This document shows positions 44,169 through 61,620 of a stretch of 64,000 nt of DNA, one piece after another. Each line of letters opens with the position of its first letter. Position 1 is the stretch's first letter. A program made the translations under genes and the position numbers. The notes under the pieces were generated by a model. It saw only the letters and a program-made list of their open reading frames with translations. It was not told where the DNA came from and did no database searches. This DNA is from Chthonomonadaceae bacterium. GTDB lineage: Bacteria; Armatimonadota; Fimbriimonadia; Fimbriimonadales; Fimbriimonadaceae. Where the stretch lies: positions 2,418,001 through 2,482,000 of the forward strand of contig CP054189.1 in the NCBI GenBank assembly GCA_015709495.1, written 5' to 3'.

Positions 44169-44483
44169 ATGCGAGCCGAACAGCTTCTGAGATCGAACCG
44201 AGAGTCTATCGAAGCCCTTTGCCGCAAGTACGCGGTCAAGCGGCTACGCCTGTTCGGATCGGCCCTCCGGGATGATTGGGACCCGGCTACGAGCGACCTC
44301 GACTTCCTTGCCGAATTCGGTCCCCCGGTTGGGATGAACGCCTTCGATCGCTACATGGGGCTCGTGCTCGACTTGGAAGCGCTTCTCGGGCGAAAGGCGG
44401 ACGTGGTGGACTGGAACGCCGCGAGCAACCCCTTCTTCAGGCGCCATGCAGAGCGCTCTGCCAAGGAGTTCTATGCGGCCTGA
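44169..44483 (+). CDS. mntA: MntA-type minimal nucleotidyltransferase antitoxin
   Basis: A 104-residue minimal nucleotidyltransferase. The catalytic motif is FGSALRDDWDPATSDLDFL: Gly30-Ser31 and Asp43, Asp45; the third acid may be in ADVVDW (Asp near 79). MntA antitoxins AMPylate the tyrosine of the HepT HEPN toxin and neutralise it. It is followed at once by hepT, which carries a premature stop. The gene itself looks intact. Confidence 0.88.
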   Translation: MRAEQLLRSNRESIEALCRKYAVKRLRLFGSALRDDWDPATSDLDFLAEFGPPVGMNAFDRYMGLVLDLEALLGRKADVVDWNAASNPFFRRHAERSAKEFYAA

Positions 44484-44829
44484 GACCGCCGCCGCACTCT
44501 TTGACATGAGCCGTGCGGCCGAGAGGATCGCCGAAGTTATGTATGGCGTCACGTTGGAGGGCTTTCGCTCGCAGTGGATCATTCAGTCCGCCGTGGAGCG
44601 GCAATTCGAGATTCTTGGCGAGGCGCTGGTCCGAGCGCGCGAATTCGAGCGGCCGATCTACGAGTGAATTCCGGATGCGGCTAAGATCATCGGTCTTCGC
44701 AATATCATCATCCATGGATACGATTCAGTCGATCCCGCGATTCTGTGGGCTATCGTTGAGGACCGGCTTGGCGAACTGCGCGCCCTGCTTGAAGCGCTTT
44801 TGGAGGAAGCGCGAAAACAAGGGCTCTAG
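44473..44829 (+). pseudogene. hepT: HepT-like HEPN toxin gene with in-frame stop
   Basis: The frame opens at ATG 44473 with AAGGAG upstream and overlaps mntA. It reads as a DUF86/HepT protein (AAERIAEVMYGVTLEGF, QSAVERQFEILGEALVRA) until TGA at 44665-44667, then continues in the same frame with IPDAAKIIGLRNIIIHGYDSVD to a natural stop at 44829. The RNase motif R-x4-H-x-Y (RNIIIHGY) lies after the TGA. The truncated 64-residue product would lack it. Readthrough or a sequencing error are alternatives. Confidence 0.85.
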
Positions 44830-44872: not shown

Positions 44873-44946
44873 GGCGGGTGGCCCGGATAGAGGATTGTGG
44901 CGGGTGCCCGAGGGGGGAAGGCGGGTGCCACGGATAGATGATTGTG
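44873..44946 (+). repeat. Imperfect 27-bp tandem pair
   Basis: Two 27-bp copies (44873-44899 and 44920-44946), both starting GGCGGGTG and ending ATTGTG, differ at three positions. They lie between hepT and the REP element in a gene-free stretch. Confidence 0.6.
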
Positions 44947-45022
44947 CTAACCGTGCCCACCAGGCTCCATAGGAACCGGAACTACGAGCACTTCCGAAAG
45001 CCGGTGAGCCGCGGGTGGTCAA

Positions 45023-45216
45023 CCCATGGGTCGCATTCACTTCCCGCGGGTGCCAGCCCAAACTCGTTTTGGGGTGCTCCGAGCGGGAGCCAACTCGCCG
45101 CTCTTCGCTGCGAACCTTTATTCGGCCGAGAGGCCGCCTGGACCGCCGGACCACGCAAGGAGGCGGTGAGCACCGCCCCATAGCAAGTTTGGGGTGGCAC
45201 CCGGATTGGGTCGCAC
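45023..45216 (-). mobile_element. RAYT-less REP/BIME-like element
   Basis: This 194-bp stretch is, in reverse orientation, a compact version of the ends of the RAYT unit at 60.5-61.6 kb. It contains the same modules in order: GTGCGACCC..GGGTGCCACCC (45192-45216), a CCCCA..TTTGGGG palindrome near 45174-45197, a spacer, the GGAGCACCCC..TTTGGG palindrome (45054-45080) and CACCCGCGGGAAGTGAAT (45023-45052). It has no open frame of its own. It looks like a non-autonomous deletion derivative mobilised or left by the same RAYT. Confidence 0.7.
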
Positions 45217-45614
45217 GCAGCCTCGCCATCGAACAGGTCGCAAAAAAGTGCACGGACAAACATCCGACGCTGGAACGACGGCTTCGTTCAGGAAATTGAG
45301 CGGCGGAGCAATGGCCAGATCGAGCATCGCCTGCTGTTCCACGACCCAACGATCCCCGGCGGGATCGCGATTGGCATTGTCTGCACCAACTTGCAGATTC
45401 GCCGCGCTGAACGAAGGAGCCGGAGACTACCTCCCTTCCAAAGGCGGTTTCTGCTGGAAACAAGACTGCTTGGTGGACATAGGGATTCGAAAACCCGTTT
45501 TGCGCGGCGCGTTCTGGACCTGGAACGAATCGAGAAGTGGCGCGAAGCCCGGAAACCTGATAGAATGGGCACGAGTCTCGTCTCCTGCGCTATCGGCCTT
45601 GGGGAGAGGAAGTC
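45217..45614. other. 398-bp intergenic stretch with no supported gene
   Basis: Several overlapping frames are open on both strands, but none has a ribosome-binding site, a family motif or coding-like composition that would separate it from the rest. It separates the REP element from the DUF5671-like gene; TAGAAT at 45562-45567 may be that gene's -10 box. Confidence 0.5.
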
Positions 45615-46262
45615 GTGAGCCAAGAACTGACACATTTCGTTCGCGCGGCGCTCGAAAAGGGCGCGGGCCGCGAGCAGATTCGGGCCGCCTTGATGCAATC
45701 GGGTTGGCCCACCGACGAGATCGACGACGCGCTCGCAAAATACGCCGACGTCGACTTCCCCGTTCCGGTTCCGGTTCGGCGGACTTCGGGATCAGCCGGA
45801 GAGGCCTTTCTCTACCTCGTGACGTTCTTCCTGCTTTATACGTGGGTGATCTCTCTCGGCAACCTTCTGGCCGGACTGATCGACCGCCTGATTCCGGATC
45901 TGAACAAAGAATTCAATATGTACGCGAGCGGCGATGATTCGATGCGTTGGCTGGTCGCCTCCATCGTGGTGTCGTTCCCCGCGTGGTGTCTCCTGACTTC
46001 ATCCCACCTGAGAAGCTACGCCCACGACCCGGAGCGTCGCGCGTCGCCCGTGCGAAGGTGGCTAACCTATCTCACGCTATTCGTGGCGGCGACCGTGTTG
46101 GTCGTCACGTTGATCGTTCTCGTCGCCGAGTCCCTCGGTGGTGACTCCTTCCTGAGAACGGCGCTCAAATCGGCCATTGTGCTCGCCCTTGCGGGAGGGG
46201 TGTTCTTCTTCTACCGATGGGAGCTGCGGATCGGGGACAAGCAACAAGGCGGCGGGAGATGA
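45615..46262 (+). CDS. DUF5671-like membrane protein
   Basis: A 215-residue protein. Residues 1-45 form a UBA-like three-helix region common ahead of DUF5671 (FVRAALEKGAGREQIRAALMQSGW). Then come four hydrophobic spans with FLYLVTFFLLYTWVISLGNLL and LIDRLIPD, typical of DUF5671. The function is unknown. The start is GTG 45615 after GAGGAAG. It overlaps the next gene by 4 bp (ATGA). Confidence 0.85.
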   Translation: MSQELTHFVRAALEKGAGREQIRAALMQSGWPTDEIDDALAKYADVDFPVPVPVRRTSGSAGEAFLYLVTFFLLYTWVISLGNLLAGLIDRLIPDLNKEFNMYASGDDSMRWLVASIVVSFPAWCLLTSSHLRSYAHDPERRASPVRRWLTYLTLFVAATVLVVTLIVLVAESLGGDSFLRTALKSAIVLALAGGVFFFYRWELRIGDKQQGGGR

Positions 46263-60433: not shown

Positions 60434-60523
60434 GGGCTCCCCACGGTTTCGGACGAGTGGGGCTTACATTCCTCAAGCCCTCGCAGGGTTGAGGGTCTCC
60501 TGCGGGACGGCGGGTGGGGTTCC

Positions 60524-60721
60524 GTGCGACCCGATCTGGGTGCCACCCCAAACTTGCTTTGGGGTGAGGCTCACCCCCTCCTTAAGTGATCCGGCGGTGC
60601 AGGCGACCTCTCGACCGGATAGAGGTCCGCGGCGGGTTGGCTCCTGCCGGAGCACCCCAAAACGAGTTTGGGGTGAGGCTCACCCCCTCCTTAAGTGATC
60701 CGGCGGTGCAGGCGACCTCTC
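60524..60721 (+). repeat. Left REP cluster with 55-bp direct duplication
   Basis: It contains GTGCGACCC..GGGTGCCACCC (60524-60548), the near-perfect palindrome CACCCCAAAC..TTTGGGGTG (60544-60566) and the GGAGCACCCC..TTTGGGGTG palindrome (60649-60675). A 55-bp segment is repeated exactly at 60558-60612 and 60667-60721. The RAYT stop codon and about the last 13 codons lie inside the second copy. Confidence 0.8.
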
Positions 60722-61273
60722 AACCGGACAAGGGTCCACAGCGAACGGCAGGCCGTCCAGATCGGCATAGAACCGCGCGCTCGACCAGGGCCAGTCGCAG
60801 GGGGACTGCGCGAGCCCTCTCGCAACGGGGTTCCAATGCATGTATTCGATGCTGTTCCAGATCGAATTTGGGCTAAAGAGGTTACGATCATAACCGGGCC
60901 CGTCTTGCCAGAAGCGATGACGGAGCCTCCCTCGTTCGGATCGAACGGCGAGTTGGCTCGCCGTCTCTGGCTCGTGCTCCCGCAGCCAGTTAAGACATCG
61001 GGTGGCGGCTCGCTTCTTGATGCCGGTCAAGATGAGGTCCATCCGGTAAGGCGCGTCCAATGGCAGCACGAGCAGGTGCGCATGCTCCGGCATCAGGACA
61101 TAGGCCCAGACGTGGAAGCGCCACTGGGACCGAGCATCGCTTAGGGCCGCGAGAACGATCTGCCGAAGAGGATCGCGATCGAGAAGAGGCCACCGGTGGT
61201 AGCACGAGAACGTGAGCTCGTGGGCATGTCCCGGCTCGTTAAACGTGACACGGCTCTTGCGGTGAGAAGGCAC
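60680..61273 (-). CDS. REP-associated tyrosine transposase (RAYT, IS200-like)
   Basis: A 197-residue Y1/HUH transposase of the RAYT group. The HUH motif is PEHAHLLVLP (about 62-71) and the catalytic Tyr is in NSIEYMHWNPVARGL (about 142-156), followed by WPWSSARFY, all diagnostic of RAYTs. RAYTs nick and join REP sequences as single strands and are usually single-copy domesticated genes beside REPs, as here. Its C-terminus is encoded by the REP repeat. It appears intact and may be active on the REPs in this window. Confidence 0.93.
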   Translation of the reverse strand: MPSHRKSRVTFNEPGHAHELTFSCYHRWPLLDRDPLRQIVLAALSDARSQWRFHVWAYVLMPEHAHLLVLPLDAPYRMDLILTGIKKRAATRCLNWLREHEPETASQLAVRSERGRLRHRFWQDGPGYDRNLFSPNSIWNSIEYMHWNPVARGLAQSPCDWPWSSARFYADLDGLPFAVDPCPVERSPAPPDHLRRG

Positions 61274-61333
61274 CGATTCAGATTACACGGCCTGACGTTG
61301 GTCCCCGCTACGGTCGCCCTTGGGCCGAGTGCC

Positions 61334-61508
61334 GGAGCACCCCAAAACGAGTTTGGGGTGGCACCCATGGGAAGCAGACTCGTTCAATCGGATTGCCACC
61401 AGCCCGTGGAGTTCTCTAACTTCCCTACTAAATGGACGGGCAGGTGGGGCTTCGTGCGACCCAATCTGGGTGGCACCCGTGGGAAGTGAATTCGGCCCAC
61501 GGGAAGGC
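61334..61508 (+). repeat. Right REP cluster
   Basis: It includes the 27-bp module starting GGAGCACCCC (61334-61360, identical to 60649-60675), a GTGCGACCC..GGGTGGCACCC module (61454-61478) and CACCCGTGGG..GGCCCACGGG (61474-61503), a CCCGTGGG/CCCACGGG hairpin. The intergenic span 61274-61620 has no gene. Confidence 0.75.
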
Positions 61509-61620
61509 CAACTGCCGCGGCTTAGTTCCAGGTTCGTCGCAGGTAGGCGGACATCCTTCGAGCGGCTCGAACGAGACCCTCAACCCTGCGAGGGTCGAGG
61601 GATGCAAATGCAAGCGAGAG

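Follow-up and report, generated by a model that had tools for sequence, protein, structure and literature searches.

The short element at 45011-45229 of the window (the whole 64,000-nt stretch analyzed, positions 2418001-2482000 of the 2,897,187-base, single-contig genome G000) is probably a REPIN-like mini-element derived from a RAYT (REP-associated tyrosine transposase) unit and itself non-autonomous; it would have been made by internal deletion and mobilized in trans. It was composed of both inverted REPs found at the flanks of a RAYT gene in the same window (REPa from the 3′ side, and REPb from the 5′ side together with roughly 29 nt of its inner flank), and its linker carried the decayed 3′ end of a RAYT gene (Table 1). 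It therefore held both ends of an autonomous element plus part of the transposase gene, the mark of a MITE formed by internal deletion. In a genome-wide BLAST search, it matched the RAYT locus at E 1.1e-40.

Table 1. Features of the mini-element, the repeat adjoining it, and the RAYT locus (window coordinates)
Feature	Coordinates	Strand	Remarks
Whole element	45011..45229	-	REPa, linker with RAYT 3′ end, and REPb on - strand; non-autonomous, REPIN/MITE-like
REPb outer arm of element	45011..45055	+	Starts GCGGGTGG, ends CGGGTGCCA
REPb palindrome of element	45056..45074	+	One mismatch versus CCCCAAACTYGYTTTGGGG
REPb inner flank of element (TGCTCCGAGCGGGAGCCAACTCGCCGCTC)	45075..45103	+	Akin to inner flanks at G000 1232013 and 2213909 and in left copy at RAYT locus
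Decayed RAYT 3′ end in element	45104..45169	+	FAANLYSAERPPGPPDHARRR-stop, related to RAYT FAVDPCPVERSPAPPDHLRRG-stop
REPa palindrome of element	45176..45194	-	One mismatch
REPa outer arm of element	45195..45229	-	CGACCCAATCCGGGTGCCA side
110-nt dispersed repeat	44901..45010	+	Ends at element start; 3′ REP of second family of internally deleted RAYT elements
RAYT	60680..61273	-	197 aa, frame open and intact
REPb upstream of RAYT start	61340..61403	-	Palindrome 61340-61358 plus outer arm
Left copy at RAYT locus	60508..60675	+	REPa, linker, and REPb palindrome without outer head
Hybrid palindrome	60655..60673	.	REPb inner flank on left, REPa inner flank on right; outer head on neither side

Read on the - strand (45231-45008), the element displayed the structure REPa outer arm–palindrome–linker of about 100 nt–reversed REPb palindrome–REPb outer arm, in agreement with the kinds and order of modules described in an earlier note on this DNA. 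That note had placed the element at 45023-45216 and given it a single palindrome; the start was instead found at 45011 and the end near 45229, and the element contained two mutually inverted palindromes (45056-45074 and 45176-45194). The two REPs faced each other, each with the palindrome CCCCAAACTYGYTTTGGGG and, outside it, a head that ended in GGGTGCCA, while their outer arms differed: (i) the GCGGGTGGCCATCCCATGG... type in REPb and (ii) the GGCGGGTGGGGCTTCGTGCGACCC... type in REPa. In the predicted single-stranded fold, both REPs paired into one long hairpin of -57.1 kcal/mol, versus -48.2 +/- 3.7 kcal/mol for shuffled sequences (z -2.43; an energy as low in 3 of 200 shuffles). The Rfam search of the element and RAYT sites gave 0 matches in 17,201 bases, ruling out a known structured RNA at either site.

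The linker was aligned to the 3′ end of the RAYT gene without gaps, with 55 of 68 columns identical and a score of 71 (best of 300 shuffles: 27). The remnant corresponded to the last 21 RAYT codons, from codon 177 to the stop, with REPa directly after, and it spanned FAVDPCPVER, the C-terminal extension, and the stop codon; tblastn paired the linker with RAYT residues 177-196 at 55%, in a small database whose E-value is not genome-wide. When the inner flanks of 12 REPa copies were compared with the RAYT gene, four scored above all shuffles (left copy at the RAYT locus, 110; element, 71; 257838, 42; and 765057, 31, which is weak) and eight did not. Within this first repeat family, the conserved RAYT coding part was present only in the element and the left copy, and the REP clusters around 2212-2219.5 kb and 2232-2242 kb contained no convincing match to RAYT remnants.

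The RAYT gene at 60680-61273 matched the profile NF047646 at 80.8 bits (curated cut-off 80), had TnpA-REP 4er8 as its closest solved structure (E 0.066, weak), and matched no Pfam family at E 0.001. It is likely to represent the source family of the element, and its product is possibly the enzyme mobilizing the element. The gene was flanked by converging inverted repeats (REPa palindrome 60546-60564 and REPb palindrome 61340-61358), and the locus displayed on the - strand the order REPa, linker, headless palindrome, RAYT 3′ end, RAYT, REPb. The RAYT 3′ end was present a second time in the linker of the left copy, in a version that was ten bases shorter than the element's. Since the palindrome of the left copy was a hybrid between the REPb and REPa inner flanks and had no outer head, the left copy has the appearance of this mini-element joined to the RAYT unit at the palindrome.

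The palindrome pattern had five matches in the window (0 in 100 shuffles) and 34 genome-wide at up to three mismatches (24 exact, six with one mismatch, one with two, and three with three), versus three for the reversed-pattern control. Converging palindrome pairs within 300 nt were found only at 45056/45176, at G000 257838/258091, and at the RAYT locus. The junction structure that the earlier note expected in copies throughout the genome was lacking in most of them; the other forms were solo REPs, arrays, a one-palindrome form of joined REPa/REPb arms at G000 2239901, and palindrome-less forms at 61440-61517 (outer arms of REPa and REPb joined to each other) and, similarly, at G000 2239314. 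High copy number as doublets, a criterion for REPINs and BIMEs, was not found. In the element, by the predicted fold, a single hairpin could be formed by inverted REPs on either side of a short spacer, which is also such a criterion. The 5′ GTAG tag, another of these criteria, was absent from the REP heads among the copies listed, whose sequences directly 5′ of the palindrome were CGGGTGCCA, TGGGTGCCA, or close variants; the element was therefore classed with REPIN-like elements rather than with the classic GTAG REPINs.

Two further families of internally deleted RAYT elements were recognized in the same genome. The 110-nt repeat adjoining the element had copies at 1636302 (85%) and 1097641 (84%), belonging to the second family at G000 1635899-1636429 and 1097640-1097998, which shared 82% identity over 360 nt. 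These joined RAYT codons 1-14 (RKKRKSFDIEGHAH) to about 37 C-terminal codons (PVRRKLVAEAAEWPWSSVRLYRNLEPVVFQADRWEV), with a shift of reading frame between the N- and C-terminal parts, as determined by tblastn with the G001 and G032 RAYTs against databases of few loci (E-values not genome-wide). The joint was identical in both copies and their surroundings differed. At the element, this repeat halted at 45010 and its continuation was absent from the other side, so that the element was not a clean insertion there. The third family, at G000 861143, had 35-nt inverted ends 219 nt apart, and contained between them only a C-terminal RAYT part (NF047646 positions 112-146, E 1.1e-7), with 57% identity to the RAYT at 470529.

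The comparison set covered 41 genomes, one other of which was of the same genus, and the RAYT units of G038, G001, and G034 were searched by DNA, each in its own genome. Coding remnants were seen in one of these three relatives (G034). At G034:C1:16377-16841, a 5′ REP plus RAYT codons 1-28 was joined to codons 127-180 plus a 3′ REP, the two parts overlapping by 8 nt where they met, making it the clearest case of a MITE formed by internal deletion; three short loci of this genome (C6, C4, and C17) had the 5′ and 3′ REPs joined at the palindromes with a 13-nt overlap. A short element in G001 (C8:340184-340406) carried both REPs and no RAYT match at E 0.1, and the G038 unit had no clear coding-remnant derivative among the hits from its own genome. 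Two C-terminal RAYT fragments of G038 (C47 and C97) were set aside because they were located at contig ends and are thus probably assembly cuts. G001 also harbored two RAYT units that were 87% identical over 795 nt, with similarity ending at the REPs, which suggests from sequence comparison that units were moved or copied as a whole.

According to the earlier note, the element matched the two ends of the RAYT unit joined together, in the order expected if recombination between identical 27-bp modules (60649 and 61334) had deleted the gene. The linker coding sequence and the hairpin fold bore out a RAYT-less, MITE-like derivative of a RAYT unit, while this recombination was not supported as its source. 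The direct repeat was real, measuring 31 nt rather than 27 (60645-60675 and 61330-61360), and the predicted deletion product (60508-60675 joined to 61361-61406) aligned to the element at 146 identical of 178 columns. In the right arm, the likeness was strong only for about 14 nt past the palindrome and was 72% over 45 nt, and five of 12 other REPb arms were closer to that of the element than the RAYT's arm was (158358 and 228824, both 80%; 2235937, 78%; 2213909, 76%; and 2239901, 73%). Moreover, the element had GCAGCGAAGA at the ten-base gap of the left copy, where the RAYT gene reads ACAGCGAACG (7 of 10 bases matching, in pairwise and three-way alignments alike); because these ten bases were present in the element and absent from the left copy, the element is not a product of the present RAYT locus. 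Together, the ten-base and arm comparisons ruled out recombination at this locus as the origin and indicated an element older than, or parallel to, it. Rather than at the palindrome, the deletion joint lay at about RAYT codon 177 beside the REPb inner flank, and this coding joint must pre-exist any such recombination; in an older RAYT locus still having the ten bases, recombination would only release a mini-element already made. An origin by recombination between the identical modules is thus quite improbable.

Still less probable, and by a good measure, is the reverse direction, in which the BIME linker came first and the RAYT gene took its 3′ end from it by reading into it. Published RAYTs can overlap flanking repeats at their 3′ ends (PMC3733652), and the last 11 codons (SPAPPDHLRRG) were not conserved in relatives and could belong to either history, as gene or as linker DNA. 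The linker, however, also contained FAVDPCPVER, and RAYTs of other genomes ended in EVDRCPVE, QVDRCPVE, EVDPCPVV, ECDPVPV, and similar sequences; the first half of the remnant is hence a conserved RAYT end elsewhere and derives from the gene, and other elements carried longer RAYT pieces from both ends. The reverse direction is therefore mostly excluded, standing only for the last 11 codons. Alternatively, a full RAYT unit may have inserted at the site and later lost its middle, without ever moving as a short unit. The few copies of the element and the presence of more than one RAYT unit per genome in relatives, as in G001, would fit such decay in place, but the same joint region also occurred at the RAYT locus, and the second family had one joint at two differently surrounded sites, pointing to shortened units being copied after the deletion; decay in place is thus rather unlikely. 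The joint region common to the element and the left copy likewise argues for copying after deletion, although gene conversion or recombination could also have spread it.

In the preferred reading, internal deletion followed by mobilization in trans, the interior of a RAYT unit (REPb–RAYT–REPa) would have been deleted, so that the 5′ flank came to adjoin codon 177. The 8-nt overlap at the G034 joint suggests that such deletions were caused by replication slippage or by microhomology end-joining. The shortened unit would have kept both hairpin ends, and the RAYT, presumably an IS200/IS605-type Y1 single-strand nuclease recognizing hairpin ends, could cut in trans at the REP heads on single-stranded DNA and move the unit. 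We infer that the element transposed; its low copy number argues against this, and no target-site duplication was visible at the element.

REPINs were named by Bertels and Rainey in 2011, who left their origin open, named as "one possibility" that they descend from REPs at the flanks of an IS200-like ancestor, and described RAYTs as single-copy and seemingly unable to move themselves (PMC3116915). The element resembled REPINs in having two inverted REPs with a spacer, a hairpin, and a RAYT in the same genome, by which REPINs are thought to be moved in trans (PMC3116915), but it differed in that its REPs were longer and had CGGGTGCCA or TGGGTGCCA as heads, its copy number was low, and its spacer contained RAYT coding sequence. 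RAYT-like genes with long inverted repeats lacking GTAG, some forming dispersed families, were reported by Di Nocera et al. in 2013 as TIRtrons/TIRYT repeats, with the motif GGGGWSAS (PMC3733652). The present RAYT was similarly located between long non-GTAG inverted repeats; the TIRtron motif was present at the inner side of its REPa (GGGGTGAG) and absent at REPb (GGGGTGCT). In E. coli, TnpA-REP cuts single-stranded REPs and requires the tetranucleotide (PMC8266576). Enterobacterial BIMEs are likewise mosaics of inverted REPs with variable linkers, but the linker origin could be named in the element, and no GTAG was found in the REP heads listed. MITEs arise from IS elements by internal deletion, retaining the ends of the autonomous element while the interior is missing. 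The element likewise kept the ends of an autonomous unit without its interior, but its parent was a RAYT unit, of the Y1 single-strand type and ending in hairpins, and no target-site duplication was visible. The literature searched, which included few subscription papers, yielded no account of REPIN spacers with RAYT coding remnants, and the consulted parts of PMC3733652 contained no mention of coding remnants in TIR families.

Elements with a recognizable RAYT piece in the spacer provide direct evidence for one answer on REPIN origin, and those described here look like fossils of the origin by internal deletion that was put forward as a possibility in 2011. A single such element would be weak evidence; here, the pattern was present in three families of one genome and at one locus of a relative, suggesting that such mini-elements are produced by loss of the middle part from complete transposase units. 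REPIN origin thereby becomes testable, with parent, joint, and offspring comparable within one genome. More tentatively, the RAYTs of this lineage may be still-mobile, REP-ended transposons, not single-copy domesticated genes, from which REPIN-like elements arise repeatedly by internal deletion; if so, they would represent the transitional stage required by the 2011 proposal, with readable joints preserved.

Several further observations were made around these loci. The flank of the element at 45231-45615 had no match in 24 relatives, and an empty site was not found in relatives because the flanks were not conserved. In G040, RAYT fragments belonged to a broken assembly, while G001:C13:122438-123986 contained two tandem RAYT genes about 1 kb apart, the first with a TGA inside its frame. 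The RAYT of G038:C150 lay between identical 107-nt direct repeats (1239-1345 and 2087-2193), a layout from which recombination would delete the RAYT gene. In G000, the RAYT at 470529 had its own REP family (CGGGTGCCCCGGTCTGACTCGCAGAGCAGACCGGG), copies of which occurred within first-family linkers, e.g., at 2217005. The RAYT locus of the window was framed by inverted copies of the end repeat of the 861143 element (60464-60509 and 61563-61608). Beside the element, at 44169-44667, lay a gene for an MntA-like nucleotidyltransferase and, after it, a short HepT-like frame that matched only positions 1-43 of 120 of PF01934; the two are possibly a broken toxin-antitoxin pair.
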